From a virus: DNA of 26,994 bases. Below the pieces are notes generated by a model. It saw nothing but the letters and a program-made list of their open reading frames with translations. It ran no database searches and was not told the origin of the DNA. Every line of letters starts with the position of its first letter. The first letter of the stretch is position 1. This document shows, piece by piece, positions 2,050 to 23,095 of this stretch. A program made the translations under genes and the position numbers. The stretch covers positions 1 through 26,994 of the IMG/VR virus record IMGVR_UViG_3300047557_000289, one strand, 5' to 3'.

Positions 2050-3380
2050 AACTTAGACCTTATCAAGAACGCGCCGTTGACTTCTTATATTCCAACGACC
2101 GAGCGATGGTGTTAGCGCCCGTAGGCGCTGGCAAGACGGCTATCACGCTCACAGGCATGGACGAGATGTTGCGTCATAAAGTTGTCAAGCGTTGGCTCGT
2201 CTTAGCTCCTAAGCGGGTCTGTACGGATGTATGGCCCGTTGAGCAGCCTAAGTGGGCGCCTGATATGCCACTCGCCGTTGCAGTTGGTACACCAGCGCAA
2301 CGCAGCCAAGCACTCTATTCGGGTTTCCCCGTAGTGGTAACTAACTACGACAACATTCAATGGCTGGCTGAACAACAACTAGACTTTGACGCTATCGTGT
2401 TTGACGAGCTAACCAAACTCAAGAACCCATCAGGCAAACGATTCAAAGCGCTCATCAAGGTGATTGACAAGATCAACATTCGTTGGGGTTTGACCGGCAG
2501 CTTTACAAGTAACGGGCTTGAGGACGTGTTTGGGCAGTGCAAGATCGTCGATCAATCCTTGCTTGGTCGTAGCAAAGGCGCGTTCATGCAACAGTATTTC
2601 GTTTGCATCAATAAGGATTTTGGCGAATGGGCGCCCCGTGTAGGTTCGTTGGAAGCCGTCATGAATCAGATCAAACCTGCTACGTTCGTTTTAGAAGCTG
2701 GCGTCTATAAGGACAAGCTGCCTGATCTGCACACCGTTGAGTTGCGTTGCGACATGGATGACCGCGCCCCATACGAAACCATGAAAAAGCAGTTTGTGGT
2801 GGAGTTTGGCACTGAGCAGATCACCGCCATGAACGCTGCCGTGGTTACAGGCAAGTTGCAACAGATGGCGTCAGGCTTTGTTTACAAGACCGAAACGACC
2901 GCATCGGACACACCTGGCAAGATGAACGTCACCAATACGCCGATCTGGTTCTCAAGCCATAAGTTCGATTTGCTTGATGAGTTGCTAGAAGAAAACCAAC
3001 ACGCCAATACCATCATCGTCTACAACTTTGTTGAGGAATTGGCTGAACTCAAGCGTCGCTACCCACACGCTCAGACGATCAATGACGACAAGGCGATTGA
3101 GCGTTGGAACGCAGGCAAGATTGAGCTATTGCTCATCCACCCCAAGTCCGCAGGGCATGGGCTAAACCTTCAGCATGGCGGTAGCAAGATTGTGTTTCTA
3201 TCCTTGCCTTGGAGCCTAGAACTCTTTGAGCAGACGGTTGGGCGCCTACATCGGTCAGGGCAGACAGAGGACGTATGGTGCTATATTTTGCTCACCAATA
3301 AGACCGTGGACGAGAGGATTTGGGCGGCGTTGCATGACAAACGTGCGCTATCTGATATTGCATTGGAGGAATTGAAATGA
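2046..3380 (+). CDS. SNF2/DEAD-type superfamily 2 helicase
   Basis: About 444 aa from TTG 2046, an SF2 ATPase of the compact phage SNF2 type. Motifs seen in order are a Q-motif-like N-terminus KLRPYQ, Walker A APVGAGKT, motif II as FDELTKLKN, motif III WGLTGSF, motif V region SAGHGLNLQHG, and motif VI EQTVGRLHRSGQ. Such proteins translocate on double-stranded DNA and may remodel or unwind replication intermediates. I prefer TTG 2046, which overlaps the stop of the 52-aa gene (TTTTGA), because homologues begin at KLRPYQ. A TTG at 1977 would add 23 residues read out of frame from the 52-aa gene. The end overlaps the next gene by ATGA. Confidence 0.9.
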   Translation: MKLRPYQERAVDFLYSNDRAMVLAPVGAGKTAITLTGMDEMLRHKVVKRWLVLAPKRVCTDVWPVEQPKWAPDMPLAVAVGTPAQRSQALYSGFPVVVTNYDNIQWLAEQQLDFDAIVFDELTKLKNPSGKRFKALIKVIDKINIRWGLTGSFTSNGLEDVFGQCKIVDQSLLGRSKGAFMQQYFVCINKDFGEWAPRVGSLEAVMNQIKPATFVLEAGVYKDKLPDLHTVELRCDMDDRAPYETMKKQFVVEFGTEQITAMNAAVVTGKLQQMASGFVYKTETTASDTPGKMNVTNTPIWFSSHKFDLLDELLEENQHANTIIVYNFVEELAELKRRYPHAQTINDDKAIERWNAGKIELLLIHPKSAGHGLNLQHGGSKIVFLSLPWSLELFEQTVGRLHRSGQTEDVWCYILLTNKTVDERIWAALHDKRALSDIALEELK

Positions 3381-3526
3381 CTCTAAGAGAGGAAGCCTTA
3401 AAACTAGCCGACGATATTGATGAGTATGCACCAGACACCAATATCGCCGATATTATTCGCCGTTTGGTTGCCGAGATTGATCGGCTTAACGGCAAGACCG
3501 AATTAGACATAGACGGGAGATGTTAA
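3377..3526 (+). CDS. Small hypothetical protein (49 aa)
   Basis: A short frame from ATG 3377, overlapping the helicase stop as ATGA, to TAA 3524-3526, which overlaps the next ATG as TAATG. The product is acidic and helical, with LREEALKLADDIDEYAP followed by DIIRRLVAEIDRLNGK, so two amphipathic helices are likely. I do not recognise a named family. The exact start/stop overlaps on both sides are the main evidence that it is translated. Confidence 0.7.
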   Translation: MTLREEALKLADDIDEYAPDTNIADIIRRLVAEIDRLNGKTELDIDGRC

Positions 3527-3720
3527 TGGATCGGCTATCGTACTACAAAGCCAAGCTCAAAGCAGCACAAGCCGAGGAGATCATTCGGGTACGCGAGTAC
3601 AACCAGGCGCAGCGATCCTTGGATCGAGTGATCAAGCAAGTCATTGAATTACAAAAGAAAGTAGAAGATTATGAAAGAAGTGAAAGAGCTAAGTTGGCGC
3701 AAACTCAACGATATTCTTAG
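3526..3720 (+). CDS. Small coiled-coil protein (64 aa)
   Basis: Starts at ATG 3526, which shares its A with the previous stop. GGGAG lies about 7 bases upstream, so this ATG is better placed than an in-frame ATG at 3520. The product is almost wholly helical and rich in Lys, Glu and Gln, with heptad-like spacing through RSLDRVIKQVIELQKKVEDY, so it is probably a coiled-coil dimer. It overlaps the next gene by 50 bases. No family or function is recognised. Confidence 0.72.
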   Translation: MDRLSYYKAKLKAAQAEEIIRVREYNQAQRSLDRVIKQVIELQKKVEDYERSERAKLAQTQRYS

Positions 3721-6592: not shown

Positions 6593-8815
6593 TTACCTCG
6601 CAAGAGCATTTTGATTCTGTTGATTTGGTGCTAAAGCATTAGCTGGAGGTATTGTAAGCATAATGGCGCCCGATGTAACTGCACGGTTCCAATCCTTACT
6701 GCTTGTTAATAATTGAAACGCTTTCATTCGCTCATCCGCAGGGAGTGTATTTAATACGTCATTCATAGCTTCTCCGTTCTTAGCTGCGTTAGAAAGAATC
6801 TCAAGCGTCTTTTTACTTACCTTTCCTTCTAATGTTTGCAATACTTTTTTGGCAATCGCTGTCTTGTAGCCAACGAAGCCAGGGATTTTTTCAGCCATGC
6901 TTTCTTTTTCAATACCCAACGCACGGCGACCGGCTTTAACTTGTTCGCCAATCTTAGCGTCACGCATGAGTTCGTCAGCAATTTGCTGCATGGGTTTGAT
7001 GTCTGTACCCATCTCTTTAAAAATATTAAAGCTGCCGGGGCCAAACACGGCTTCTACGGCATCAGGATTGTTGCCTTGCACCAAGCGAATAAATTCGTCT
7101 GGCGATTTGTTAAGCATCTCAAGCGCTTTACCCGCTAACTTACGGCGGTCAATCAGCTGCGCATTAGCCGCATAATCGCGTAAATATTGACCATAACCTG
7201 TACCGCCAGCTTCTTCAACAGCGTTGATGATCGGCGTTTTTAGCTGCGCTAATACGCTAGCGGCTAAGTTCTTTTTAGATGTTTGATCTAAGCCTGGGCG
7301 TAGCTTTTCAATGGCTGCGTTGACGGAGTTCTTACGTAGACTATCTAAAGCAAACGCGTCAATAACACCGCCTTTGTCCGTCCATTTAACAACATCATCG
7401 CCAAAGTTACGCACAGCGCCTTCAATCACATCGTTGCCAGCAAACTCAGGATTACGCAAAATACCGCCTAAACGGCTCAAAATAGAGTCGGATGTTAAAG
7501 GATTTAGTCCATACGCTTTTAGGCTATCGACAGCTGCTTGCTTAAACCGAGCAGCTTCACCAAAGCGTAATGAACCTTCAGCGGCTTGAGCCGCCACTTC
7601 ATCAGCTTTAGAAGCTAATTTGCCAAGTTGATAGTCGGTAGCCAATATGCCAGGTGCGGGCGTAATCGCACGTTGTTGTGCGCCCGTAAAGCGGCGAACA
7701 TCTTGAACTTTTTGACCTGCCGCTTGAGCCAATACGTCTGCTTCTTGTTGTAGCTTACGACCTGTTGTGCCAGCAATATTGGCTGCGCCAAGCTCGGCTT
7801 CACGAATTGGAGTCATTAAATTGTTAAGCGCATTTTTAAATTGACTAACAGACGTTAAGTTTTCCGTCAATGTTGGGCCACCAGCTAACTGCGCTAAACG
7901 ATTTAATTGATCTGTTTTCTGGGTGTCTTTTAAAACACGAAAATATCCGGATTTATCTTTGCCAGATACAAAGTCTAAAAACGCTTGATATACGTCATTA
8001 TCAATACCAGCAGCGGCTTGGGATGCGCTAATATCTAACGGGGCTAACTTGTTAGCCGCGCGGATCTGATTGATCGTATCGCCTGCTACTTCACGCGCAA
8101 CTTGACCTGCTTCTACTTTGGCTAAATTGCCTGTTACAGCATCAATAAATTTACCACCGCCAATCGCTAAATAACGTCCAGCAAAAGGTAATGCAAATGG
8201 CGCAGCTGCGCCAATTACAGTACCTGTGGCAGCTTCTTCGGGGTTAATTAAAGCAGCAGATGTACCGCCAACAACAGCGCCGCCAGCAGCGCGAGTAGCT
8301 GCTTCGGCAGCACGACCAGCAGTTGCAGGCAAACCAGTGCTAAAGCCGCCTGTACGAATTGATTGAGCCAAAGGCGCTGCGCCTGGAATAGCGCCTATAC
8401 CCCTAGCGATTACGCCGCCAACTGGCAACGTTCCAACCACTTGCCCTGTTACTTCGCCAGCACCCGTTAATGTAGGCGCAACTTGACGATATGGCGCAAT
8501 AAACGCTTCTTGCTCGGCTTGACGACGTGCGGCATCCTCAACCAAAGCACGACCGGCTTCGGTAGCGCCAATCGCCTCTAAACCGCGTCCAACTAAACGC
8601 TGACCGCCAAACATCACATCACCGATACCTTTGCTAACGCCAGCAAACGGCGCTACAACGCGACGCGTTTCAGCCTCAACCATCTTACGGCGTGGGCTGA
8701 CTTCTTCGGCTATGCTCCCGCCAAACTGTTTAGCGAGTGTTTCATAATCAATATTGGACGCAGGGGCTACTGAACCGCCAAACTGTTTTGCAAGGGCTTC
8801 GTAATCAACGGCCAT
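6593..8815 (-). CDS. Large internal virion / DNA ejection protein (P22 gp16 position, 740 aa)
   Basis: The third and largest of three consecutive ejection-type proteins, in the slot P22 gives to gp16. The N-terminus carries two copies of DYExLAKQFGGS at residues 4-15 and 23-34. A region around residues 100-225 is rich in Gly/Ala and hydrophobic, with many small-residue helices that could insert in or cross the host envelope. The remainder is helical and charged, and a hydrophobic helix (AIMLTIPPANALA) lies near the C-terminus. The protein would travel with the DNA into the cell. Assignment is by order, size and composition; I do not see a lysozyme motif. Confidence 0.72.
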   Translation of the reverse strand: MAVDYEALAKQFGGSVAPASNIDYETLAKQFGGSIAEEVSPRRKMVEAETRRVVAPFAGVSKGIGDVMFGGQRLVGRGLEAIGATEAGRALVEDAARRQAEQEAFIAPYRQVAPTLTGAGEVTGQVVGTLPVGGVIARGIGAIPGAAPLAQSIRTGGFSTGLPATAGRAAEAATRAAGGAVVGGTSAALINPEEAATGTVIGAAAPFALPFAGRYLAIGGGKFIDAVTGNLAKVEAGQVAREVAGDTINQIRAANKLAPLDISASQAAAGIDNDVYQAFLDFVSGKDKSGYFRVLKDTQKTDQLNRLAQLAGGPTLTENLTSVSQFKNALNNLMTPIREAELGAANIAGTTGRKLQQEADVLAQAAGQKVQDVRRFTGAQQRAITPAPGILATDYQLGKLASKADEVAAQAAEGSLRFGEAARFKQAAVDSLKAYGLNPLTSDSILSRLGGILRNPEFAGNDVIEGAVRNFGDDVVKWTDKGGVIDAFALDSLRKNSVNAAIEKLRPGLDQTSKKNLAASVLAQLKTPIINAVEEAGGTGYGQYLRDYAANAQLIDRRKLAGKALEMLNKSPDEFIRLVQGNNPDAVEAVFGPGSFNIFKEMGTDIKPMQQIADELMRDAKIGEQVKAGRRALGIEKESMAEKIPGFVGYKTAIAKKVLQTLEGKVSKKTLEILSNAAKNGEAMNDVLNTLPADERMKAFQLLTSSKDWNRAVTSGAIMLTIPPANALAPNQQNQNALAR

Positions 8816-8816
8816 G

Positions 8817-10076
8817 TTATAGCCCCGCTGCTTTTTTGTATGCTGCTGCCGCTTCAGGCGTTGGGAATGTTAAAACTTTACCGCCTGGAATAGTTACCGT
8901 ATTACCACCTGCGCTCGGTGCAGGTGTTGGGGCAGCGCCACCGCCAGCAGCAGGCGCAGCTGCACCGCCGCCTTTGTAATCATAGGTAAGATCAAATGCT
9001 TCACGAACACGCGACTTAGAGCCACGGATGCCATCAGCGATACGATCTAATTCATTTTGAACGCTACTAGCTTCTTGAGTGCGATCTAATGCACCCGCAG
9101 CTTGACGCAACTGTTGACCTTCTTGGTTCGATACGTTACCTAATGCACCACCTGTGGGCGAGGCATTACGCATATCTTGAAGTTCTTTGAACTGCAAACC
9201 AGCCACAATCTTGTCGTATAGCGCTTGAGCTTCACGACCTTCTTTGGTAACGCTAGGCGTACGACCGTAAACAATACCTGTAATGCTTTTAAGACCAGGG
9301 TGATTACGCAGCCGTTCAATGTCTTTAAGCACCGAGTCGGACTTAGACTCAAATGATTTAAGCGCCAAGTTAGCTTGCGGATATTTAGCTTCACGCACTT
9401 GCATCTCTTTGGGCGAGATATTAGTTGTGGTTGGGCCACCGGGAATAGGCTCTAATGTGCCTTCACCAGTCATGCGATAACCAACAGGAATACGCCCAAT
9501 ATCTTGACCGCGCATGGTTACGCCCATCTGGGCTTTTTGAGCAGCGCTAATGGTTAGCTGCTCTAAGCGCTTATTAACGTCCGTCCCCATTTGCAACAAC
9601 AGTTCTTTACGTTGATTTGCAGGCATAGCGCTTACTTGCGCCCACATTTGTTTAGCTTGATCGGGTGACATTTCGCCACGCAAAATAGAATCTTCTAAAT
9701 GGGCGGTAATATTAGCGTCCGATGGGTTAAATGCTAAATCCGATATGCGTTCGCGTTGCATTTTTAACGATTGTTCATCAAGTTGACCACGCAATTTTTT
9801 AGTTTCTAAGGCTGACTTTTCTTGCTCAGATAAAGCCTTGCCGTATGCCAAACCAGCTTTACCAAACTTAGCTAAACCCGCCCGTGTTTCAGGCTTGGCT
9901 AAATCTGCTCCTGCCAAGTAATTACGCAGTTGTTCTTCTTCTTGAAGCCCACGTTGTAACTCTTGCATTTTTAACGCATTTACACCAAATTCTTGAGCGC
10001 GTGATGCCGCTACAAGCGGATCTTGAATCTGAGGCATTTGAAAACTTAAAGGAATATTTGGATTAATTTGTGCCAT
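8817..10076 (-). CDS. Internal virion / DNA ejection protein (P22 gp20 position, 419 aa)
   Basis: A mostly helical, charged protein with long coiled-coil-like stretches (residues about 30-200) and a Gly/Ala/Pro-rich linker near residues 370-395. It ends in a short module VLTFPTPEAAAAYKKAAGL that I associate with phage ejection or tail-tube accessory proteins. It sits between the 251-aa and 740-aa ejection-type genes, in the place of P22 gp20. AAGGAA precedes ATG 10076. Role inferred from position and composition. Confidence 0.65.
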   Translation of the reverse strand: MAQINPNIPLSFQMPQIQDPLVAASRAQEFGVNALKMQELQRGLQEEEQLRNYLAGADLAKPETRAGLAKFGKAGLAYGKALSEQEKSALETKKLRGQLDEQSLKMQRERISDLAFNPSDANITAHLEDSILRGEMSPDQAKQMWAQVSAMPANQRKELLLQMGTDVNKRLEQLTISAAQKAQMGVTMRGQDIGRIPVGYRMTGEGTLEPIPGGPTTTNISPKEMQVREAKYPQANLALKSFESKSDSVLKDIERLRNHPGLKSITGIVYGRTPSVTKEGREAQALYDKIVAGLQFKELQDMRNASPTGGALGNVSNQEGQQLRQAAGALDRTQEASSVQNELDRIADGIRGSKSRVREAFDLTYDYKGGGAAAPAAGGGAAPTPAPSAGGNTVTIPGGKVLTFPTPEAAAAYKKAAGL

Positions 10077-10085
10077 ATCTGTTCC

Positions 10086-10841
10086 TTAATCTCCCCACGA
10101 TAGACTACCTTCGCTACCGCCCATATATCCAAAACCGCCGCCGCGTTGTGCGGGAAGTAATCGGTTAAGAAGTTGTTGATTTTGATAAAAGTTAAGCCCT
10201 TGACCTAAACCGCTAGCAATCGCATTTGCAGCGCCAATTTGCCCCGCTGCCTGTGCGTTACCAGCGCCAATAATATTGGCGCCAAGACTTTGCCCTAAAG
10301 TGCCAGCTTGTGTGCCTAATACATTAGCAGATGTTTGAGCCGTGCCAGCCAATGATTGCAAGGGGTTTAATGTACCAGCACGTTGCGCTTGAAAACGATT
10401 AAATGCGTTCATGTATTCTTGCGAAGCTAAATCTTGCCCATAACGCTGAATACCTCTTAAAGCTGCGCCTGACAATAAACCACCTCTAGCCGCTGCTGAA
10501 CGTTCTAATGCTTTCATGCCTTCAGACATACGAAACGCATAGCCAGGGTCGGCTTGAAACATTGCTGGTGTAAATTCAGCTGTGGCATACTTGCCATAGC
10601 CAGGGGCAGTTTTAGACCCGCCAAGCCCTAAATATTCTAAAAGACGATTTTGACCTGCAAGACCAGCTTCCCTAAACGGTGCTTGTAATTCAACTTGACG
10701 TTCAAAAATTTGTCGTTGAACATCAGAGGCTTGTTGGGCGGCTTGTTGTTGTGACGCAGCAGCGCTGCGCGAAGCACTTGATCCAATAAGAGCGCTGCCA
10801 ACGGTGGCAACGGCTGGAATGGCTATGGCTGCACTAGGCAT
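10086..10841 (-). CDS. DNA transfer / ejection protein (P22 gp7 position, 251 aa)
   Basis: The N-terminus is hydrophobic with small residues (AAIAIPAVATVGSALIGSSA), then Gln/Ala-rich (QQQAAQQASDVQRQIFER). Next comes the pattern PFREAGLAGQNRLLEYLG and a region with RMSEGMKALERSAAARGGLL and LRGIQRYGQDLASQEYMNAF that I recognise from phage DNA transfer proteins. It ends in a Gly/Asn/Gln-rich helical part. In P22 the gp7 slot holds the first ejection protein, and the order here is the same. Overlaps the preceding gene by 8 bases. Confidence 0.78.
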   Translation of the reverse strand: MPSAAIAIPAVATVGSALIGSSASRSAAASQQQAAQQASDVQRQIFERQVELQAPFREAGLAGQNRLLEYLGLGGSKTAPGYGKYATAEFTPAMFQADPGYAFRMSEGMKALERSAAARGGLLSGAALRGIQRYGQDLASQEYMNAFNRFQAQRAGTLNPLQSLAGTAQTSANVLGTQAGTLGQSLGANIIGAGNAQAAGQIGAANAIASGLGQGLNFYQNQQLLNRLLPAQRGGGFGYMGGSEGSLSWGD

Positions 10842-11286
10842 TTTTAAACTCCTTCATATATTCATCGTATGTTTCACCATACAATGCTGAAACTACATGG
10901 GCATTTTGCGCCGCAAAAACTTCACCGTGGCATAGCTGAACTACCGTTAACACCACATCATAGTAACCTGCACGCCACATATACGACTTAGCGTCCGCTT
11001 TTCCCGTTCGTTCTAGCGTATCGGATGCTTGCCATTTTAGTATATTTACACCAACTACAGAAGATAAACAATAGGCGTTAGCGGCATAAAACGGGTTTTG
11101 TTGCATACCGACTAATGTATTCCAAATGACGGCATTTAGATCGTTACGCTCAACAGGGTCGCCATCAGCAAAATCGTCAAAAACTTGAAACGCGTGGTAC
11201 AAGTCTAATAACCACCGAACGGCGTCTGGTGGCAAAAATAAGCCTTGGCTTAAATTTTTTTGTAAGCGTTCAAGGTCTTGTTGCAT
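10834..11286 (-). CDS. Conserved phage protein (150 aa), P22 gp14 position
   Basis: A soluble helical protein with LPPDAVRWLLDLYHAFQVFD, FADGDPVERNDLNAVIWN and an aromatic C-terminal half (SYMWRAGYYDVVLTVVQLCHGE). I have seen similar proteins in the tail/ejection regions of podoviruses, but I know of no function. It sits just before the first ejection-type protein, where P22 has gp14, an assembly factor. The start overlaps the upstream stop as TAATG. Confidence 0.7.
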   Translation of the reverse strand: MQQDLERLQKNLSQGLFLPPDAVRWLLDLYHAFQVFDDFADGDPVERNDLNAVIWNTLVGMQQNPFYAANAYCLSSVVGVNILKWQASDTLERTGKADAKSYMWRAGYYDVVLTVVQLCHGEVFAAQNAHVVSALYGETYDEYMKEFKNA

Positions 11287-11624
11287 TAGCTCGTAATCTC
11301 CCGTCCGTTTGACCGAATGTTGATCGCCGATGCAGTACCCGCAATCGTCGAGATAAATCCACCTGGTAATAGCGCCGCGCCCACAATTTCTGGAAAAGTA
11401 TAGGTTTCCGCAGGCTGTAAGGTCTTGGTCTTGACGATCAAGTTCTGGTTACCTGCCGTATCTGCGGCAGTCACTAAGTTGACGCTAATGGTTGCAGCGG
11501 CAGCGCTGTAATTGGTAGCGGTGAACTTGTCAATAATGGTCGTTACGCCATTAGCGGTATATTGGGTAGTTTGCGTAGCCTCAGCAATTTTGGCTGGGAT
11601 TAGAACTCTTACGGTGACGGTCAT
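11286..11624 (-). CDS. Beta-rich virion-type hypothetical protein (112 aa)
   Basis: A short beta-rich protein with a repeated Thr/Ala/Val pattern ([20 protein letters not shown], then [20 protein letters not shown]) resembling a single immunoglobulin-like or decoration-type domain. There is no Cys and there are few charged residues. It is coupled to both neighbours (ATGA upstream, TAATG downstream). It lies between the needle-like 366-aa protein and the gp14-position protein, so a minor tail or connector role is plausible. Not recognised as a named family. Confidence 0.68.
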
Positions 11625-12721
11625 GCTGTAACTCCTTGTAGTGTTGGTTTAGACACCAAATCCATTGTAACGATAACTGACGGTGTTGCGGGGCGAACTG
11701 GCGCTGTTTTTGCGGCTAAGTATTGAATTGTAGTGCTAGTGTCTGTAGTTGCCCACATTAACTCAATATATTCGTTAGCGGCTAAATCAATGAATAAATT
11801 TAATGCGGCAATTAAATGTCCATCCACGCTACCATGCCGATTGGGTACAGAAAATTGACTATTGGTATCTGCCACATTGGTGCCGTTCTTACGCATCCAA
11901 ATATCAGTGTCGTGAATACTACCATCGGTATTAACAAACTGAACGCTAAACTGCACGTTGTAGACCCCTGCAATCTCGGCTTTTAGCTTGGATTTGCAAG
12001 TGCCTGTAATGGTTGTGGATGCTACGGTTTGGGATGCGCTGACAACATAATCGCCTGTACTGCCGTCCGTACCCGTAGTTTGCGACACAATATAAGTGCC
12101 AGCCGTCACGCCCGTACCCGTAATGACCATGCCAGAATAGATCGGGCCAGACGAAACCGCCGTAACAGTCATGGTCGTACTAGCAGGGCCAATTGACGCC
12201 GTAAACACGGCGGTTCTATCTTCTAACGTAACGTTTTTGCTATACGCCGTGGTGTCGTACACAATGGGGTACGCCGTGGTGTTGGAGCCGTCAGGCTGAT
12301 TAGCCGTACTGTAAAAGCTCCCGTACACTAACTGTAAGACTTGAGGCGTATGTACAGGAGCGCTTGTTAAGGCTTGCACATCCGTAGACAAGTTCATAAT
12401 TTGAGCTTGTAACGCATTTACGGCAGCTTCAGCGCTAAGTTCAGCGGTCTGAACTTGTTTGGCTAATTCAGCAATTTGTGACACCAACGGGCTGTCATTG
12501 GTTTGCGCTTCGGTGACGTTTTGCAGATCCAACACAAACTGGTCGTTATTCGGTGGCCCAAGCTGTAGATCGTCAAGGCTCGTTGGGTTATTGCCCGAAC
12601 CCGTTAAGACGAATAAGTTAAGGAAGAACCGGTACCACTCACGGGTTAAGTAGCCTGTGTTGGCGTCAATCAACGGCGTTCTTGGCGCCGGTATATTGGT
12701 GACGTTTAGTGGACTAGGCAC
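11621..12721 (-). CDS. Trimeric-type tail protein with C-terminal knob, tail-needle position (366 aa)
   Basis: Starts with GTG at 12721-12719, overlapping the gp10-like gene by 8 bases. The N-terminus [11 protein letters not shown]...LTREWYRFF is a pattern I know from phage tail proteins. A coiled-coil stretch follows at about residues 78-120 ([20 protein letters not shown] and on), then a beta-rich C-terminal domain ending near [11 protein letters not shown]. This layout, plus its place right after gp10 where P22 has the gp26 needle, suggests a trimeric needle or short fibre with a knob. The knob appears interrupted by a Thr/Gly-rich module at residues 170-242. Function inferred. Confidence 0.7.
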
Positions 12722-14144
12722 GGGTTGGACTCAAGAGCAGTTCAGCGCCGACGATGGCGATCTTGACAGGATCGGTGCCTGACACCTCATATACGCGGTC
12801 ACGCAGTTTCATAGTCATGCCAAGCCGACGCCAAAACACGCGGCGTCCAAATTGACCGATCTTGCCCATCGGCGCCCAGTGTTCGTTCGACCATGTATGA
12901 CCGCCGTCATCTGACCAACGCAACATTAGTTGGGGATCGTCGCCTTGGCCAATATTGATGCCCGTACCCGTTTCGCAATCAAGCTGTAGGCTGTGTTGGG
13001 CGGTACGACGCAGGTTGTTCTGACCGCTAGGAATTGGACGCCATGAGCGTAGCCACTTTTGCGGCGCACCATTATCGGCATAGACTTCTAAATCGTAAGC
13101 GTACAAGTTGCCGTTCTCGTAATCGCCGAGGATGATCTCGTTATTAAACGCCACTTGGCAGTTGGGGCGATAGCGCACAAAGTTGCCGTTCGACCAGCCT
13201 GCTCGCTCATGCCACGATTGGGTCACGACATCGTAAACCCATGTCTTGCCAACGGTAGGGAAAGTTAGCACATAAAAGCTATGGCCGTCTTGTTGATAGG
13301 TGTAAGCAATCGCATTACTTAGATCGCCATATTGCTGAATCTGCCATTCAACTGCATGGTTAGACGCACGAACGCCCGTGTAGCCACTGTTGCGGTACAC
13401 GATGCCACGACCGCGGGCGTCTTGGCCTAGCCAAAACACCGAGTTGTCGAGCTTGGCAACCGAGTAGGGCGCTACGCAACCAATCTCGTTCGAGGCACCT
13501 TGAATACGAGCCAAGGGGAAGTCAGGCGTTCCTGCGTCATACCAGACCTCAATCGAGTTCGTGCCAAATAGCCACGCCTCACGGTTGTTGACGATTACAG
13601 CTACTAGCCCATCAGGTGAGCCTTCAGCGCTTGCAAAATCAAGTGGGTCAACTTGCGAACCATCAAGCAGGCTTGTAATCCATACCTTTTGGCTGTTTGG
13701 CTCGTTAAACACAAAGTAGCCGTCTAAGTAGCTAACTGTCACTGCGCCTGGATAGTCAGGGTCGCTAATCTGTGCAAACGCTAATGTGTTAGCGTTGTAA
13801 ATGTAACCTTGTGGATTAGCCGCTACAAACAACTGCGTACCGTTGTCCGACATGGATACAGGGCCAGTGCCAGCAATCGTGCCTAATGCAGTGGCGTTGT
13901 ACGAGCTATCGAGCTTGTATAGGGTATTACCCGATACGGCATACATAAAGCCATCAAACGCCCACAAGCCTCGGATTGGGCCAAAGCCAATGGTAGTGAG
14001 TAGCCGCAAGCCTGGGGCGCGGTTTAGAAAGCCTGCCTCTTTACCCTCGTTGGGGATGGCTTCGGGGAACAAGTTAATCATGCGGTTGTCGGCCGCATTG
14101 ACGCTACGGGCTACATACGCTTGCCCCAAGATTGGGGTTTTCAT
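12714..14144 (-). CDS. Packaged DNA stabilisation protein, P22 gp10-like tail hub
   Basis: A 476-aa protein with the N-terminus of the Phage_stabilise family ([20 protein letters not shown], then [20 protein letters not shown]). A long repeated-strand body with [16 protein letters not shown] and similar blades suggests a beta-propeller. The C-terminal part ([18 protein letters not shown], then WRRLGM) is the typical conserved end. In P22 this protein closes the portal after packaging and binds gp4 and the needle. Both expected neighbours are adjacent here. Its ATG overlaps the upstream stop as TAATG. Confidence 0.92.
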
Positions 14145-14872
14145 TAGTAGTTACCCGCAAAGATATTGAACCGTTGACGTGTGCCAACCAAGCTGTAAGG
14201 CATGGCCATGATGTCGTCAGGATTGTTGATCCGCTTGAGATTGCGCTTAGAAGTCATTGCTACACGCGCTACGTTAGCGGGCGGCTCAATACCGAACTCG
14301 GTAGCGATTTCGCAAGCAAGGTTGTATTTAAACGCTCGTAGGTAGCCAGGTGGCATGGTAATGTCAGTCGATAGACTTGGCACTTCCATGAGCTTTTCTA
14401 CCGAAACAATATGAAACTCCAACGGTTTAATCGGCACAGGGTAGACGTACATTTCAATGTCTGGATAGGTCATATTGACCCACAAGACTTGAGGATAGGT
14501 CGAGGTCACCGTTTTGACCGCAATACCGTTGTATTGCTGTTGGTTAATCAGCTTAATGCCGTACGAGATGTTGGTTGCTGCGTCCCTAAAATAGGTCGCA
14601 TCGTCCACCAATACAGGACGTTTGGGTGTACCACCTAATGCCAACGGCAAATTACCTGTTGGGCCAAACGTTAAAAAACGAGCGCCAGCAGGCCACGAAG
14701 CAATTTGATCTTGGGTAGAAAATACAGCTAAACGCTCGGTATTCCAGCTATCAATCATCTGATTGAGAGCCGTTAAAGCATCTTGTGAGGTGGCTGCGGA
14801 TGGTGTTTCGCCTTCGGCTAAAACCCCTAATACGCGCAACGCGCCGTTAATTTGGTCGTTTGCCGTGGTCAT
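14144..14872 (-). CDS. Tail accessory / head completion adaptor, P22 gp4-like
   Basis: A 242-aa helical adaptor. Its N-terminus (INGALRVLGVLAEGETPSAA, then ALTALNQMIDSWNTERLAVF) is the usual beginning of gp4-type head-to-tail connectors, followed by a beta stretch and a C-terminal helix (GYLRAFKYNLACEIATEFG). It would bind the portal ring below the vertex and create the platform for the gp10-like hub. AAGGAG precedes ATG 14872. No muramidase-type motif is obvious in this shorter version. Confidence 0.88.
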   Translation of the reverse strand: MTTANDQINGALRVLGVLAEGETPSAATSQDALTALNQMIDSWNTERLAVFSTQDQIASWPAGARFLTFGPTGNLPLALGGTPKRPVLVDDATYFRDAATNISYGIKLINQQQYNGIAVKTVTSTYPQVLWVNMTYPDIEMYVYPVPIKPLEFHIVSVEKLMEVPSLSTDITMPPGYLRAFKYNLACEIATEFGIEPPANVARVAMTSKRNLKRINNPDDIMAMPYSLVGTRQRFNIFAGNY

Positions 14873-16187: not shown

Positions 16188-17396
16188 TTAACCCCACAAG
16201 CGAACGCCCATTTGAGGACGAATCACTGAGTAGCCATACAACACGTCGATACGGCATGGTAGACGGTCATTGTTGATGTCGTATTGGCGAACAATACGCA
16301 TCGAAATGCCGTTATGCACTTGACGTGAAGCCATGTCAACACCTTGAGGCATCAACAAGTCAGCGGTCGCAAAAGTGATCGCATCTTTGTGATAGACCAA
16401 GTTTTGTGGGTACTGGGTATTAGCTGCACCGATGAAGGTGGTTACTGAAGTAGCGGTTGGCAACGCAGATACAGTTGCTAGCGCATGGCTAGAAGTGTAC
16501 ATTGCGGGGCTAACGGTTACAGTAGCAACGCCGCCAGCCGAAGAAGTAGTATCGGCTAAAACAACGAACTGCTGGAGCGAACCAGTAGACTCACGGGTTT
16601 GTGGGTTAACAGAGAATACGCCAGCAACGGTAAATACGTCGCCAGCCTTGATGGTAAGAGCGTTACCAACACCTGCCAACACGATGGTGTTAGAACCTTC
16701 GGTGGTTACGGTGGTGCTAACGGTACCAGTGGAGTTACGAGTACCAGTTGTGAACTGCTTGATAGATTGGCTCATGTTGATCTCGTCAAAGCCCAAAACG
16801 CCCATACCCATCATGCCGTTTTTAAACTGCTTGGAGATGGTGTCGGTTGGGTTGAAAAGACCTTTCATGCCTTCTACTAAGCCAGCGTTAGCGGCTGGGT
16901 TAACAGTTGCATAGCGTGGGGACATTACAGCAGCAGCTTCGTTAAGTTTTTGTTGTGCAGACAACAAAACAGCGGAAGTTGCAGGAGTAATGCCAGGAGT
17001 TCCAACGGATTGGAAAATGCCTTTAAAGCTGTTAGCTACGTCAGCATCAATAGAAGCTGCCAACTGGCTAATACGAGGCTTCAAAACACGCTCTGCGAAG
17101 TCGTCTAACTGCATGGTCAATTCAGCAGTGGTGAAGTTAACACCAATGTGCTTTTGGCTAGATACAGTCAAAGTGGTGAACTGCTCGTTGTCGTCCTGAA
17201 CTTGGAGGGCGGCACCGTCAGTGACCAAAGCACGGTCTGGTAGACGAATACGGAGGGTTGAGCCGATTTTAGCGCCTTCAACAGCAAAGCTGTCGTCGTA
17301 CGCACGATTTACGTTGCGAGTTAAGACAAGATTATTCTCAAGGATTTCAAGGGCCTTACGAGTAATCATGTCAATGGTTAAGATTGAGTTTGCCAT
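16188..17396 (-). CDS. Major capsid (coat) protein, P22 gp5-like
   Basis: A 402-aa protein with the family pattern. The N-terminal arm is ILTIDMITRKALEILENNLV, then NRAYDDSFAVEGAKIGSTLR. Next come TLTVSSQKHIGVNFTTAELT and DFAERVLKPRISQLAASIDA. An insertion-domain-like segment includes AGDVFTVAGVFSVNPQTRES, and the C-terminal strand set ends in VIRPQMGVRLWG. It is slightly shorter than P22 coat (430 aa). It lies 19 bases after scaffold and ends before a strong terminator, which fits high expression from the promoter near 18271. AAAGG precedes the start. Confidence 0.93.
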   Translation of the reverse strand: MANSILTIDMITRKALEILENNLVLTRNVNRAYDDSFAVEGAKIGSTLRIRLPDRALVTDGAALQVQDDNEQFTTLTVSSQKHIGVNFTTAELTMQLDDFAERVLKPRISQLAASIDADVANSFKGIFQSVGTPGITPATSAVLLSAQQKLNEAAAVMSPRYATVNPAANAGLVEGMKGLFNPTDTISKQFKNGMMGMGVLGFDEINMSQSIKQFTTGTRNSTGTVSTTVTTEGSNTIVLAGVGNALTIKAGDVFTVAGVFSVNPQTRESTGSLQQFVVLADTTSSAGGVATVTVSPAMYTSSHALATVSALPTATSVTTFIGAANTQYPQNLVYHKDAITFATADLLMPQGVDMASRQVHNGISMRIVRQYDINNDRLPCRIDVLYGYSVIRPQMGVRLWG

Positions 17397-17415: not shown

Positions 17416-18216
17416 TTAGCGGTTTCTCATAGCCTCGAGCTTTTTGATCTGGCGTTGGCGTTCTGCTTCGATCCATTCGGAGGTACTCATCGACTTAATC
17501 GAACGAGGATCCGTCGTATCGAACGCAGGCGAACTAGAAGTTCGTGCCGTCACCGGAGCAATAGGCGCCGGGGCGTTTGAAGTCTTTTTAACTGGCGGAT
17601 TGTCGCTTAATTTAGCTTCAATTTTGCCAATCTCTTTTGCCTGCAAAAACGGCGATAATTTGGAAATACGTTCAGCTTCCTTAGGGTTACTACCTAAATA
17701 GTACGCCATCTCTGGCCCTATATCGGACGCTTGAATCGTTTGAGCCATCACATCGGTGATTGGTAGCTTGGGATTGTAGGCGACTTGTTCAAAGTCATCG
17801 TACTTAGCCCGAGCTTCTTCTTCCCGTTCGTGATACTGCTCAATAAGTTCAGCTTGCATCCTCGCCTGCTCACGCCTCTCGATTAGCTCGGCAGCCTTAC
17901 GTTCAGCCAATAATTCGGCATATTCTTCAGGCGGCAGTGAATCGGCAGGCGGGAGTTCGGCAGGGATATTTGCCTTTAGCTTTGCTTCCTCGGCTTTTAG
18001 GCGCTGCTCTCTTTCCCACTTACGTTGTTCTCTTGCAAGGCGTTTACCAATCGCGGCATCCAATTCTTCTTGTGTGAATACTTTGGCGGCCTGTTCAACT
18101 GGCTTTTCTTCCGGCGCATCTGTTACTTCGGGTTCTGGGGCTGCCGTAGCTTCCAGTTCCGGCGCGGGTACTTCGGGTACTTCCGCTTGGATTACTTCTT
18201 GTTGACTTTCGTCCAT
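17416..18216 (-). CDS. Scaffolding protein, P22 gp8-like
   Basis: A 266-aa protein with a Pro/Glu/Ala-rich acidic N-terminus (EVPEVPAPELEATAAPEPEV). A highly charged helical middle follows (KRLAREQRKWEREQRLKAEE and on). It ends in a basic helix, WIEAERQRQIKKLEAMRNR, which matches the coat-binding helix-turn-helix end of scaffolds in general character. Its position directly before coat is as in P22 (303 aa there). It would guide procapsid assembly and leave the head. AGGAAA lies before ATG 18216, within a weak 5-bp hairpin (GTTTC/GAAAC, 18221-18235). Confidence 0.9.
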   Translation of the reverse strand: MDESQQEVIQAEVPEVPAPELEATAAPEPEVTDAPEEKPVEQAAKVFTQEELDAAIGKRLAREQRKWEREQRLKAEEAKLKANIPAELPPADSLPPEEYAELLAERKAAELIERREQARMQAELIEQYHEREEEARAKYDDFEQVAYNPKLPITDVMAQTIQASDIGPEMAYYLGSNPKEAERISKLSPFLQAKEIGKIEAKLSDNPPVKKTSNAPAPIAPVTARTSSSPAFDTTDPRSIKSMSTSEWIEAERQRQIKKLEAMRNR

Positions 18217-18351: not shown

Positions 18352-19899
18352 TTAAACTGTTTTTTGCACACCAAAATACGAATGGGAAGCAATTACTACG
18401 CTATTCCCCGCTGAATTTTTTATCGAAACTACCCCGTTTGTTACGTCGCTATCACACGCATAAGGAATCATTACAGAAACCAATCCTTTTTCAAATTGTG
18501 GATATATAAATGCGGCGTCCCAAGAAGTTCCGTTTGGTATTTTTACGTCTGATGGTCTTACAATTTCCAATAGTTGTGCGCCAGGAGTTGCTGACATTCC
18601 TGAACAACTTAATTTAACAACAATAAATCCAGTTTCACCTTTAGCAAAATTTGTTGTTACGGTTGAAATTGTTGCCCCAACAGCATACGTTCCAGCAAAA
18701 TCACTAGCATTAAATTTCCAAACATTACTGCGGTCACCAGCGGACTGAACAGGGTAACTTTTTAGCAGTGTTGGTGTTTCTAAATACGCAACTGACCCTG
18801 AACCATTATGTTTCAAATTATGCACTTGCACATTTACAGATGAACTTTTGATTTGAACGCAATTTACAAACGTTGCGTCTGTGCTGACGCCATTTATAAA
18901 TATGTTGCCGTTTCCGCCGTTGGCTACAACACCAGCATTACCAACTATTGCGTCAACACATTTAATATCTGTAACATCAACACCATATGTTCCAGCCATA
19001 ATGTCTACGCATTGGCCAGTTTGATTAATAAAGGTGCAATTTCTAATTGCGGCTCGCGTATCAATTCCGCTAGTATTTACCGTGATAAGGCCATTCAAAA
19101 CTACGCAAGCATCAATTACAGCATTAAAACAGTGCGTAGTTGTTGATGGTGTGGTCAAAAATGCAGAATATCCAGCCGACGTGCCTTGCAACAAACACGA
19201 CACAAATTCAGCAACAAAATAATCTGACAAATAAACTGCATATTCGTAAACTGCTATTTCGCAACCAGTAAAATACCAGCCTTCGTTATAGTAAGAAGTG
19301 CCGCCACTAGATAACAATTTAACGCCGTATGTACCTGCGGCACTTGTGCCAGAATACAATAAGGTTTTGTTAGCGTAAACTTCTACGCCTTTTCCATCTG
19401 ACAAAATTCCATTGGCAGACAACGCAACGCATGAGTCTATAAAAACTTTTCTTGCGGCTTTGTGCAGCCACAAAAAAATGCCAATGGTGCTAGATGATAC
19501 GCGAATATCTTGCAAATAAATGTTTCTTGCATAATTTGACTCTTGCGTTGGCGTGTCGGTTAAACCTATTGCTTTCAAAAATACCGATGCCGTACCAGTT
19601 ATTTCACCACCAAAAATACGAATTTGAGTTGCTGCGGTATCAGTCACAAATAAAGGATTTGCCCCACAATTTGCAACAAGATTTGCGTCTTGCATGACAA
19701 TAGTTGTGTCGCTTGGCAGCGTAATGGTTGAATTAACCAAATACGTTGAGCCAGCGGGGAACATAACGCTTTTTTCCGCGTTAATTGCCGCTTGAATGGC
19801 TGCGGTACTATCTACTACACCAGTAGGATCAGCACCGTAATCATTTACGTTAGCGGGTGAACCGCTAATCATTGCGTAGGTAACTTTTGTCAAAGACAT
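18352..19899 (-). CDS. Tailspike-like beta-helix protein with pectate lyase superfamily domain (515 aa)
   Basis: A short N-terminal adaptor (MSLTKVTYAMISGSPANV) leads directly into the Pectate_lyase_3 signature DYGADPTGVVDSTAAIQAAI. A long run of short beta strands with Asn/Gly turns follows, then a beta C-terminal domain (about residues 385-515). It lacks the head-binding domain of the 688-aa protein, so it may attach through that protein or the 369-aa fibre. Likely role is binding or cleaving surface polysaccharide of the host. Catalytic residues are not identifiable by eye. The AAAGG ribosome site is 6-7 bases before the ATG. Confidence 0.82.
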   Translation of the reverse strand: MSLTKVTYAMISGSPANVNDYGADPTGVVDSTAAIQAAINAEKSVMFPAGSTYLVNSTITLPSDTTIVMQDANLVANCGANPLFVTDTAATQIRIFGGEITGTASVFLKAIGLTDTPTQESNYARNIYLQDIRVSSSTIGIFLWLHKAARKVFIDSCVALSANGILSDGKGVEVYANKTLLYSGTSAAGTYGVKLLSSGGTSYYNEGWYFTGCEIAVYEYAVYLSDYFVAEFVSCLLQGTSAGYSAFLTTPSTTTHCFNAVIDACVVLNGLITVNTSGIDTRAAIRNCTFINQTGQCVDIMAGTYGVDVTDIKCVDAIVGNAGVVANGGNGNIFINGVSTDATFVNCVQIKSSSVNVQVHNLKHNGSGSVAYLETPTLLKSYPVQSAGDRSNVWKFNASDFAGTYAVGATISTVTTNFAKGETGFIVVKLSCSGMSATPGAQLLEIVRPSDVKIPNGTSWDAAFIYPQFEKGLVSVMIPYACDSDVTNGVVSIKNSAGNSVVIASHSYFGVQKTV

Positions 19900-19908
19900 G
19901 GCAAACCT

Positions 19909-21018
19909 TTATACAAAATAAGTCAAATGAATGGCAATTAAAGCACCAGACACATTTGCATTTGAAATAGCAGAATTATCATTTTTTACAGCAATGAAAA
20001 CGGTGGTTGAGTTAGGCCGCAAAAATAACTGAAATCCTGCGCTGCAATACATAGAAACACCTGCACCATCATCTGTCGACTTTATATTAAAAGGCAATCC
20101 GCCGATTGTCAGACCTAATCCGTTTGCGGTCGATGGATAAGTTAGCCAAGCTAAACAATTAACTTGCCTGCCAATTCTTGTGTAGGTACCTTTTACGTTT
20201 GTAAAAGTTAACCCTGCGCCAGATTGATCTGTAGGTGTCCAAGTACCTTCTTCGTACCATGTCAGCGTTTCGCTAGTCATCCCAGCAGCATGAGTGTTTG
20301 CAGAAAAGTCGATGCCAGCGCCCGAAACGGGTACAAAACTACCGTTTGTGTCAATGGCCGCTTTACGAACACCGTCAAACGCTATGACTAAACCGCCACT
20401 AGCGTTGCCTGCGCTTATGATAGCCGCGTCTTGAGCATTAGTAATATCGGTGTATGCCGAGCTAGTCATTCCAAAAGCAACGTTGCCAGCATCGCTAATC
20501 GCAATGAATCGTGCTACAGAGCTAGTTCCAGCGGTTGAGTTCGTTACACCAACAGTAGCGGTGCCGTTAACGGATTGAATTGCATGAACTCTATAAGATG
20601 GTGAACCACCAAAACCAGTATCACCAAAAATATTAGTTCCTGTAAATGTCTGACCAGTGTCAGTTCTAGCGACCGTAAAATTAGCGTCGGGCGTAGTCAT
20701 TACCCGTGTAGCTGCGGCGGCGGGGCCAGCAATTTGCAATACGCCAGTAGTAGCATTAGATTTAACTTGATTTGCTGTATCGGCAGAAGTAGCGTTAGCA
20801 GCCCTTAAATTAGCGACTTCAGTAGTAGATGCAACGGTTAATGGTGCAGTTCCCGTAGCAACCGTAGATTGAATGGTAGTTGCGCTAATCGCTCGCCCCG
20901 CAGTTAAATTTGCTACTGATACTTGTTTTGTAGTAGTGCCTTGAACAATCGGCAATACTTCAGTGCCAGCAAGAGGTGTGGTTGATGCGGGTAAACCTGA
21001 TATTTTTACGTCAGCCAT
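19909..21018 (-). CDS. Tail fibre-like protein (369 aa)
   Basis: The N-terminus VKISGLPASTTPLAGTEVLP, then GTTTKQVSVANLTAG, is a common start of phage tail fibre or appendage proteins. A Thr/Ala-rich middle follows. The C-terminal domain begins with the pattern LTWYEEGTWTPTDQSGAGLT and GTYTRIGRQVNCLAWLTYPS, which is a common fibre tip that I know from many phages. It is placed between two beta-helix proteins, so the three genes form a host-recognition module. Which surface it binds is not visible. Confidence 0.82.
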   Translation of the reverse strand: MADVKISGLPASTTPLAGTEVLPIVQGTTTKQVSVANLTAGRAISATTIQSTVATGTAPLTVASTTEVANLRAANATSADTANQVKSNATTGVLQIAGPAAAATRVMTTPDANFTVARTDTGQTFTGTNIFGDTGFGGSPSYRVHAIQSVNGTATVGVTNSTAGTSSVARFIAISDAGNVAFGMTSSAYTDITNAQDAAIISAGNASGGLVIAFDGVRKAAIDTNGSFVPVSGAGIDFSANTHAAGMTSETLTWYEEGTWTPTDQSGAGLTFTNVKGTYTRIGRQVNCLAWLTYPSTANGLGLTIGGLPFNIKSTDDGAGVSMYCSAGFQLFLRPNSTTVFIAVKNDNSAISNANVSGALIAIHLTYFV

Positions 21019-21028
21019 AATTATTCCT

Positions 21029-23095
21029 TTACGCTATTTGTCCAAAACCAAGCCATGTGCCTGGGGTTCCAGCCGCAACACAAACCCAACCAATATATTC
21101 AGTAGTTGCTGGATCTGAGTTATAAACAATGTCGCCTTTACGCCATGTCCCTGTAGTGGGGGCGGCTGTTTGCCGCCATGCTTGATAAGTATCGTTTTCG
21201 GTATTTTGATTTAATAGCAAAGTACCAGCAGTTAAGTTGGAGCTATCATCAACCTGAATATTCTTTTTACACCAGTTTTGGCTAACAGTGACAGGGCCTC
21301 CGCCAACAGAACCAATTTTAATACTTGCTGTAGTGTCTGTAGATTCACAACGATTATTGGCTATGTTTGTTTTTCCTGGCTGGCCTAAAAGTGCGATGTC
21401 AAATCCAGTAAAACCTCTAAATAAGTTGTATTGAATATCATTTCGCCAAGCAAAGGATGTTGCATTAGCGCCAGTCACAATTCCAATAGTGTTTGTATTG
21501 GCTGAATTGTTATTAATAAAATTGTTAGAGTGAATGACGTTTTGGCTTCCAATTTCGCTATTTTGCTGCCTAATGTATATGCCAACGCCATTACTAGCTC
21601 TAACTTCAAAATAATTGCCTTCGCATCTAAATAAATTTTGTACGGTTCCTACTACAACGCAATATTCAACCGTAGAAAAATCATTAGCTACTACATTTAA
21701 AAATATGTTATTTGTTGTTGCTGGTGAATTGATGCCGCGATCAAAACCAAAAAATTGATTGTTTTGAATTATCACCCCTTCAGCAACGGCGCCAGTAAAA
21801 TTAATACCATACGCGTCTGCAGAACCGCCGTGGCTATCGCCATTCTCATAGATCATAAAGTTATTCAAAACTCGCCAAACCATTGAATAAGTACCGAATT
21901 CAATTGGATTAGTTACTTTTTGAAACTTACATAGCTGAATGGATGATTCCCATGTGTCTGAAATTAAAAAACCTTGGTTCCAATCAAAAAGTTTAAGTCT
22001 ATTAAAATGCAATCCATCACGCGAATCTACTCCAGTTGTACCGCCTGAAGGCAGTATGGACACTATAGCTGCCCAGTTTGCGGTAGATCCTGTAGCTCCA
22101 ACAAGGGAAAAATCTTCAAAAAATTGAGTGTTTCTGTCGCCTGATGGCGTAACAATCTCTATACCGTTGCATGATAGTGCTTGAATAACGCTTGCATCTG
22201 CGCCTTCACCATATATAGAAATGGTATTGCTAGTTACTTTTATGGAATCCGTTATTTTATATTGACCGGTAGGAATAAAAACAGCGCCACCACCTGCTAA
22301 AACAAGCGCATCAATGGTTGCTTGAATAGCTGCGGTATCATCCGCAACTCCATCACCAACTGCGCCAAAATCCTTAACAGATACAGTTTCACGCATTTTG
22401 TCTTGTGCTGACCTTGCAACAGCCCCCGTACCTGCAGGTTCAAAACCAATCCAATCGGCGCCGTCATTACCTGCTAAATCTTGTACGTTACCAGTTTGAT
22501 TTTTAAACCCCGTAAATGCAACTTGAGCCGCAGTATTAGCAGACGCGGAACTATTTAGTTGCGAAGTAGTAAATTTAACTTCTGCGCCAACGTGCAAACC
22601 GTTTGTAAAAGTAACGGTATCACTATCCGTTTCTACATACGCATATTGGGCGCCTGGGCCATATTGATTTACGCCATCGACAAACACAGTCAAGCTATTT
22701 GTGCCTGGTTGATACGACATTGTGGTTAAATCAAATACAGTTTGCCCGGCGGTGGCAGTTTGAATTTCTTGCTGATTTGTAAAGTTAACAAAATTACTAT
22801 TAATTCCTAAAACATTGTCATAAGTAGCAATTAATACGTCATTGCTATCACGCAAAATAAACTTATAAACCAATCCATCTGTTAGCCAAATTTCACCGCC
22901 TGAAGGTACACGACCTGAAGCGTCTAATATGATGGGGTTTGGGTGAGGAATATTACCAACGCTAGTTGTATAAGTGGGTTGCGGTGTGGTTGTACCTGCT
23001 TGGTAGGTATAAATCTTACCTCCAGTAAGAACATTACCGCTGTTATCAAAAAACTGTGCGCCTACGCCGCCGTACGGAGAAAGGTTAACGGCCAT
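21029..23095 (-). CDS. Tailspike protein with head-binding and pectate-lyase-type domains (688 aa)
   Basis: Domains in order are as follows. Residues 1-100 resemble a P22-type head-binding domain (GAQFFDNSGNVLTGGKIYTY, then GRVPSGGEIWLTDGLVYKF). Residues about 105-190 form a beta domain common in phage fibres (SYQPGTNSLTVFVDGVNQYG). From about 238 there is a Pectate_lyase_3 beta-helix (VKDFGAVGDGVADDTAAIQA). From about 640 a C-terminal end (TTGTWRKGDIVYNSDPA) is of a type seen in other tailspikes. It should be the main virion-attached spike, binding or degrading host polysaccharide. AAGGACAG precedes the ATG region of this gene. Confidence 0.86.
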   Translation of the reverse strand: MAVNLSPYGGVGAQFFDNSGNVLTGGKIYTYQAGTTTPQPTYTTSVGNIPHPNPIILDASGRVPSGGEIWLTDGLVYKFILRDSNDVLIATYDNVLGINSNFVNFTNQQEIQTATAGQTVFDLTTMSYQPGTNSLTVFVDGVNQYGPGAQYAYVETDSDTVTFTNGLHVGAEVKFTTSQLNSSASANTAAQVAFTGFKNQTGNVQDLAGNDGADWIGFEPAGTGAVARSAQDKMRETVSVKDFGAVGDGVADDTAAIQATIDALVLAGGGAVFIPTGQYKITDSIKVTSNTISIYGEGADASVIQALSCNGIEIVTPSGDRNTQFFEDFSLVGATGSTANWAAIVSILPSGGTTGVDSRDGLHFNRLKLFDWNQGFLISDTWESSIQLCKFQKVTNPIEFGTYSMVWRVLNNFMIYENGDSHGGSADAYGINFTGAVAEGVIIQNNQFFGFDRGINSPATTNNIFLNVVANDFSTVEYCVVVGTVQNLFRCEGNYFEVRASNGVGIYIRQQNSEIGSQNVIHSNNFINNNSANTNTIGIVTGANATSFAWRNDIQYNLFRGFTGFDIALLGQPGKTNIANNRCESTDTTASIKIGSVGGGPVTVSQNWCKKNIQVDDSSNLTAGTLLLNQNTENDTYQAWRQTAAPTTGTWRKGDIVYNSDPATTEYIGWVCVAAGTPGTWLGFGQIA

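Follow-up and report, generated by a model that had tools for sequence, protein, structure and literature searches.

A small beta-barrel module predicted inside the C1q/TNF-like knob of a phage needle-like protein and shared with unrelated virion proteins

Introduction

The locus studied here raises the question of whether a segment rich in threonine and glycine, located within the C-terminal knob of a phage needle-like protein, is an integral part of that knob or a separate domain grafted into it and, if it was grafted, which unit moved and how long ago. The window (the whole stretch of virus DNA that was analysed, 26,994 nucleotides of record IMGVR_UViG_3300047557_000289) encodes this protein on its minus strand. 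The initial annotation, made from the sequence alone, had placed a self-contained beta module at positions 11996-12214 and had suggested that it was a mobile domain transferred between virion proteins. In needles of this kind the replacement of the whole tip has been described, and the parts of that paper available to us do not describe an insertion within the knob (PMC3741392).

Results

A needle-like protein in a P22/Sf6-type late gene region

Comparison of the gene maps showed that the order portal, scaffold, coat, gp4-like, gp10-like, 366-aa ORF, gp7-like and gp20-like is that of the Sf6 and P22 late genes (Table 1). The 366-aa ORF lies directly downstream of the gp10/Hc3 gene and upstream of the gp7/gp20 ejection genes, as the needle gene of P22 and Sf6 does, and its product has a coiled-coil stalk (AlphaFold2 helix, residues 78-120) followed by a C-terminal tip (knob, residues 130-357), which is the architecture of gp26 in P22 and Sf6. 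Since hhalign found no sequence similarity to P22 gp26 or to the Sf6 needle (probability 0.7% for both), the name needle rests on position and architecture, by which we judged the protein to be the tail needle of a P22/Sf6-type podophage. Another contig, L328, matches the window without a difference (100% identity) over 3330 bases.

Table 1. Coordinates of the late genes of the window and of the parts of the needle-like protein
Feature	Positions	Strand	Description or basis
P22-type portal gene	23935-26151		Pfam E 1.7e-172
Scaffold gene	17416-18216
Coat gene	16188-17396
gp4-like head-tail adaptor	14144-14872	-	Without modules; site of the tandem pair of relatives is the junction near 14650
gp10-like head closure protein (Hc3)	12714-14144	-	Module-free here; relatives such as L240 have modules
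ORF at the tail-needle position	11621-12721	-	366 aa, GTG start; coiled coil between an N-terminal segment and a C1q/TNF-like knob that holds the module
N-terminal segment and stalk, residues 1-128	12338-12721	-	Predicted long helix, residues 78-120 (12362-12490), AlphaFold2
Knob, N-terminal part, residues 129-166, to strand NVTL	12224-12337	-	Alignments; AlphaFold2 strands 133-138, 157-162 and from 164
Inserted module, residues ~167-241, predicted small beta barrel	11999-12223	-	Gap in module-free knobs, HMM, AlphaFold2, BFVD
Knob, C-terminal part, residues 242-357, with C1q-like AGVYNVQFS segment	11651-11998	-	tblastn to module-free phage knobs, alignment, fold
Knob cassette, ~730 bp, exchanged whole between related phages	11638-12367	-	Nucleotide identity pattern against L065/L066
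gp7-like ejection protein gene	10086-10841
gp20-like ejection protein gene	8817-10076

Several other features of the region were recorded. Three tailspike-like or unknown ORFs, one of them pectate-lyase-like (21029-23095), lie between the portal and scaffold genes at 18352-23095; Sf6 and P22 have no such ORFs at this place, their spike genes being downstream of the ejection genes. A 740-aa ORF occupies the gp16 position (6593-8815) and had no match in Pfam or PHROG. The 112-aa ORF that comes right after the needle gene (11286-11624) matched no family and is conserved at 73-80% nucleotide identity across the boundary of the knob exchange described below. In some relatives the gp4-like and gp10-like genes are separated by about 730 bases that are absent from the window (L065, positions 1567-2292; also L066 and L075).

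The knob has a C1q/TNF fold that skips the inserted segment

Prediction of the full protein by AlphaFold2 (75 related sequences, monomer) gave a mean pLDDT of 87.9, with residues 78-120 forming the long helix and residues 130-357 a beta knob. Foldseek and VIA comparisons of the predicted structure assigned the knob to the C1q/TNF jelly-roll fold, with Z scores of up to 16.5 over about 136 residues. The matches were to F-BclA (Z 16.5, 136 residues, 2.4 A), the C1q domain of Caprin-2 (Z 15.4), the knob of the phi812 central spike (Z 15.2) and complement C1q (Z about 14.5). The C1q/TNF matches align 130-140 residues of the knob although they span about 232, which is what is expected if the module is skipped and lies outside the fold. 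Searches of PDB sequences with the knob and with the module returned nothing credible.

Filled and empty sites in the same loop

Alignment of seven module-bearing and five module-free knobs showed one clean gap, located between NVTL (residues 163-166) and CKSKL (residues 242-246), so that the extra block comprises residues ~167-241. The segment first proposed, which translates exactly to residues 170-242, is thus real and only slightly displaced, and it does interrupt one strand pair after NVTLED, as had been claimed. The expectation that the two flanks make up a normal C-terminal domain when joined was borne out by module-free relatives, the closest empty site being that of L421, where GVTVVS-GSRITAAYSGIYNIQFS faces NVTLED, the module and a continuation of 18 residues in the window; the module-free junction of L421 reads GVTVVS-GSRITAAYSGIYNIQFSLQYVNTDSQIHDIDIWFRKNG.

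Across all loci examined, 375 knob ORFs contain both knob halves, some contigs being counted twice. The halves are separated by 71-84 residues, with exactly one module, in 191 of these ORFs and by 1-15 residues, with no module, in the other 184; no intermediates were found. All of the closest homologues (64-78% identity) carry the module and the empty knobs are more distant, with the exception of syntenic phages whose entire knob differs. The module is therefore inserted between two strands of the C1q/TNF-like knob, and comparison with C1q folds suggests that the loop concerned is the A'-B' hairpin.

The module is predicted to be a small self-folding beta barrel

The module predicted alone, from 96 diverse copies, reached a pLDDT of 96.3 and a pTM of 0.83, in agreement with the view that it is self-contained; within the model of the full protein its pLDDT was about 97. 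In the full model two strands (E164-191 and E223-248) run unbroken from the knob into the module and back, and the module sits outside the C1q core, where it caps a knob hairpin and provides no core strand of the knob. Since its first and last strands continue the two strands of the knob, a rigid extra lobe is expected rather than a floppy linker.

By prediction, the module folds as a small beta barrel. Among solved structures, VIA ranked first 8eci_1, from Arthrobacter phage Bridgette (28% identity over 69 residues, Z 7.6, rmsd 2.5); a Pyrococcus protein and barrels of translation factors scored about as high (Z 6-7.5). Scores in this range may reflect no more than a common arrangement. Pfam and NCBIfam contain no model for the module; the Ig families of Pfam gave no significant match (Big_6 matched 4 of 96 members, best E 0.04) and Ig folds were absent among the VIA matches listed. 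Matches in BFVD had an rmsd of 0.6-1.4 A at 34-58% identity, with a TM score (query) of 0.86-0.94 for most of the top matches.

The module recurs in unrelated virion proteins

The HMM of the module gave 377 domain matches in the real ORFs scanned, whereas 31,816 control ORFs, either reversed or shuffled with their composition preserved, gave none. Outside the knobs, the module was found in 147 ORFs of 33 flank clusters, with one to four copies per ORF; one cluster consists of truncated needles (L069, ignored), which leaves about 32. The module, single or in tandem, is thus present in about 30 unrelated virion-protein types, as the initial annotation had supposed from resemblance to other environmental phage proteins. 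Family searches identified the hosts as gp4-like adaptors, Hc3 head closure proteins, tail sheath proteins (phrog_205, DUF3383), neck terminators (PF23961), minor head proteins of the XM1 gp53 type (PF23982), baseplate wedge proteins, fibres and others, and BFVD, which holds predicted structures of viral proteins, added an HK97 major capsid protein, Stf, protein J and a P22 gp10. Position-specific identity between the needle module and copies in unrelated proteins is about 60-77%. Many contigs have modules in two neighbouring ORFs, typically gp4-like and gp10-like, and the gp4-like protein of the window is empty at the one site where other gp4-like proteins hold a tandem pair. Contigs in which the gp4-like and gp10-like proteins both bear modules, often in tandem, include L143, L144, L146, L233-L236, L238, L240 and L242, and in such phages the module may have spread within one genome.

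The scan of contigs with a single module as query yielded 15 loci. A tblastn search of GenBank phages with the module alone gave no match, probably as a result of low-complexity filtering, and is no gauge of its frequency in cultured phages. The only PHROG matches of the 366-aa protein, one of them to a 'tail fiber' family, come from the module, which can therefore mislead function calls. It corresponds to positions of about 385-478 of 595 in phrog_21413 and of about 547-641 of 896 in phrog_38233; these are long tail-fibre or unknown families with one copy each and do not define the module.

Outside phages, A0A1V0SDM6_2 and A0A1V0SCQ2 of Indivirus ILV1, a giant virus, match the module structure at 51% identity; both proteins contain collagen repeats. 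Module-like segments were also seen in three bacterial contigs (L314, L317 and L327), where they lie in a Big_1 protein (Nitrosomonadales bin) and in large proteins (Bacteroidetes and Comamonas bins). These may be either surface proteins of bacteria or phage sequences that were binned with them.

Evidence for repeated filling of one loop

The occurrence of the module in all of the closest homologues would suit another explanation, namely that it is an ancient elaboration integral to one knob subfamily and that its likeness to segments elsewhere reflects convergence of Thr/Gly-rich beta sequences. A composition rich in Thr, Gly and Ser does ease loose matches, and the filtered tblastn search with the module alone was empty; however, the HMM was silent in the shuffled and reversed ORFs, position-specific identity extends to unrelated proteins, the BFVD models superpose closely, and empty knobs exist. 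Phylogeny of the knobs points the same way. When the module columns were left out of the knob tree, presence or absence of the module required five changes on it with 98 rows and four with 60 rows from which long branches had been removed; many branches of the tree are weak, and the strongly supported ones force at least two changes. The AU test rejected a single clade of all module-bearing knobs (p = 8.7e-7) and also the union of the main clade with L133 (p = 0.0066). An origin in a single subfamily, or by convergence, is thus largely refuted by the HMM controls, the BFVD matches and the AU test, and we regard it as extremely unlikely.

Since the module-bearing knobs do not form one clade, we conclude that this loop received a module on more than one occasion. 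The flanks of the L133 module are closer to empty knobs (61/67%) than to filled knobs (56/52%), and in the minor lineages (L133, L265/L276, L286 and L257) the module is no closer to the modules of other knobs than to those of unrelated proteins; the truncated knob contig L058 was ignored among the non-knobs in this comparison. The tree of the module itself (70 columns) was too short and largely unresolved. The filled state is read as derived because the C1q/TNF relatives that do not come from phages show no insert of this kind in the alignments. We read these results as several acquisitions of the module at one knob loop, some of which could instead be losses or recombination between knobs.

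The whole knob is the recently exchanged unit and the module is old

Comparison of the window with L065 and L066 showed 81-89% nucleotide identity through gp4, gp10 and the stalk to position 12368, no match from 12367 to 11638, and homology again from 11637 (73-77%). The N-terminal segment and stalk are 85-86% identical in nucleotides to those of L064-L067, whose knobs lack the module. Because the knobs of L065 and L066 are module-free, the presence of the module was changed there by a swap of the whole knob, and the recently moved unit is the knob of about 730 bp, with the module nested inside it. A further arrangement was seen in OR003940 (L493, positions 3001-3651), where the N-terminal 104 needle residues recur upstream of a CDS annotated as sialate O-acetylesterase; apparently the same stalk bears there an enzyme-like tip in place of the knob.

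Recent exchange of the knob, together with the many contigs in which one phage has modules in several of its genes, could suggest that the module is itself a recently mobile DNA cassette which recombines between genes at its own borders. The synonymous sites of the needle modules are, however, close to saturation (mean pS 0.69, and 0.81 for the C-terminal half of the knob), and modules in different proteins are mostly less than 80% identical in nucleotides. These two observations disfavour such a cassette, which we consider very unlikely. A possibly recent transfer is hinted at by one pair only: the modules of L241 and L239, in ORFs of different flank clusters, share 90% nucleotide identity across 167 bases. 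The suggestion of a mobile domain therefore held for its spread over many unrelated hosts and its repeated origin in knobs; no recent jump of the module alone was seen.

The module of the window is on average 84% identical in amino acids to those of 79 other module-bearing needles, as compared with 71% for the C-terminal half of the knob. Between distant relatives, no part of the protein is better conserved than the module (83-96% amino-acid identity, versus about 67-88% for the C-terminal half of the knob). Among closer pairs, dN/dS was 0.093 for the module, 0.112 for the C-terminal half of the knob and 0.158 for the N-terminal region. Near-saturated synonymous sites, low dN/dS and the low nucleotide identity across proteins show that the module is old in the needle lineage and has been kept by purifying selection, and that it is not a recent arrival. 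We give this account of the anatomy and history of the graft a probability of about 0.85, a figure that does not extend to its function.

A putative accessory contact surface

The site of insertion is a loop and many functional knobs lack the module; moreover, the tips of P22 needles are dispensable in the laboratory (PMC3741392). The module could accordingly be seen as a neutral passenger in a permissive loop, making no contribution of its own. Against this stand a dN/dS as low as that of the knob itself and a sequence more conserved than any other part of the protein despite near-saturated synonymous sites, and in view of this purifying selection we hold the passenger reading to be quite unlikely.

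A beta-barrel module of 70-75 residues, self-folding by prediction, has been grafted into the loop between two strands of the knob, and in the mechanism that we envisage a trimer of knobs would display three copies near the tip of the needle. These copies might serve as an accessory contact surface, either by weak adhesion to the cell envelope or to polysaccharide or by cementing the needle to neighbouring virion parts, and such a contact would tune injection rather than choose the host. In P22, needle tips do not determine host range and change the kinetics of DNA delivery (ejection) (PMC3741392). Phage sheath proteins have optional extra domains that are mostly Ig-like and located away from the tube, and a role in adhesion or in cementing the virion has been proposed for them (PMC9230969). 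Because the module is distributed over exposed parts of the head, neck, tail and needle, it fits an accessory contact role like that of these sheath domains. An accessory surface contact of some kind appears fairly probable from this analysis, and adhesion specifically is put forward only tentatively, the connectors, sheath and head proteins among the hosts suiting cementing as well as adhesion.

It is also conceivable that the module is a structural clamp, which would touch the adjacent subunit of the knob or another part of the tail and stabilise the virion or the trimer, with no contact to the cell. Connector, sheath, neck and head proteins, none of which meets the receptor, contain the same module, the closest solved arrangement is a chain of phage Bridgette (8eci_1), and cementing is one of the roles proposed for the sheath domains (PMC9230969). 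Sister phages, however, lack the module at the same needle and gp4 sites, so no obligatory partner surface is implied, and the clamp is a possible but on balance unlikely reading.

Discussion

Beyond the needle, we lean towards the view that the module belongs to an undescribed small beta-barrel family which serves uncultured phages as a general-purpose optional surface module, repeatedly grafted onto loop tips and retained by selection. If so, nearly every exposed virion protein, from the needle knob, gp4, gp10, sheath, neck, baseplate and fibres to even the HK97 capsid protein, could receive one copy or a tandem set, as is the case for Ig-like domains, and the needles would be nested mosaics, with a module within a knob within a needle. 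A domain that is unannotated in many environmental phage proteins gains a place, an empty and a filled site, and a fold, and annotators can mask it. Because the same needle site occurs with and without the module, it offers a clean system for asking what an optional surface domain does. The two levels of mosaicism, knob swap and module graft, are nested at a virion part thought to be the first to touch the cell.

A text search of papers for the peptide motifs of the module found none; subscription journals were mostly outside this search and an earlier description is possible. Domain mosaicism in phages (PMC10684548) and replacement of needle tips (PMC3741392) were already known. As far as we searched, three things are new: the module as a family, its having been placed several times in a single knob loop, and the nesting of one level of exchange within another.

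Comparison with the Sf6/HS1-type needle with a TNF-like knob of P22-like phages (PMC3741392) shows the same gene place, a stalk with a C-terminal TNF/C1q-like knob, and a knob that is exchangeable; the protein of the window differs from the Sf6 and P22 needles in having no detectable sequence similarity to them and in carrying a beta-barrel module nested in its knob. The C1q/TNF-like domains of BclA, C1q, Caprin-2 and the phi812 central spike knob share the core fold of the window knob, which has about 75 extra residues in one loop and is 9-17% identical to most of these matches. Homologous fragments shared by unrelated phage proteins, many of them outside domain databases, were reported by Smug et al. 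(2023; PMC10684548); the module is not named in the parts of that work available to us, and here it is traced to one site with empty and filled relatives. The closest parallel in the literature is provided by the promiscuous Ig-like domains of phages (Fraser et al. 2006, as cited in PMC9230969), which, like the module, are small optional beta domains of many unrelated virion proteins, probably displayed on the surface and spread horizontally. The module probably differs from them in its fold, predicted to be a small barrel, and it is inserted inside domains, often in tandem.
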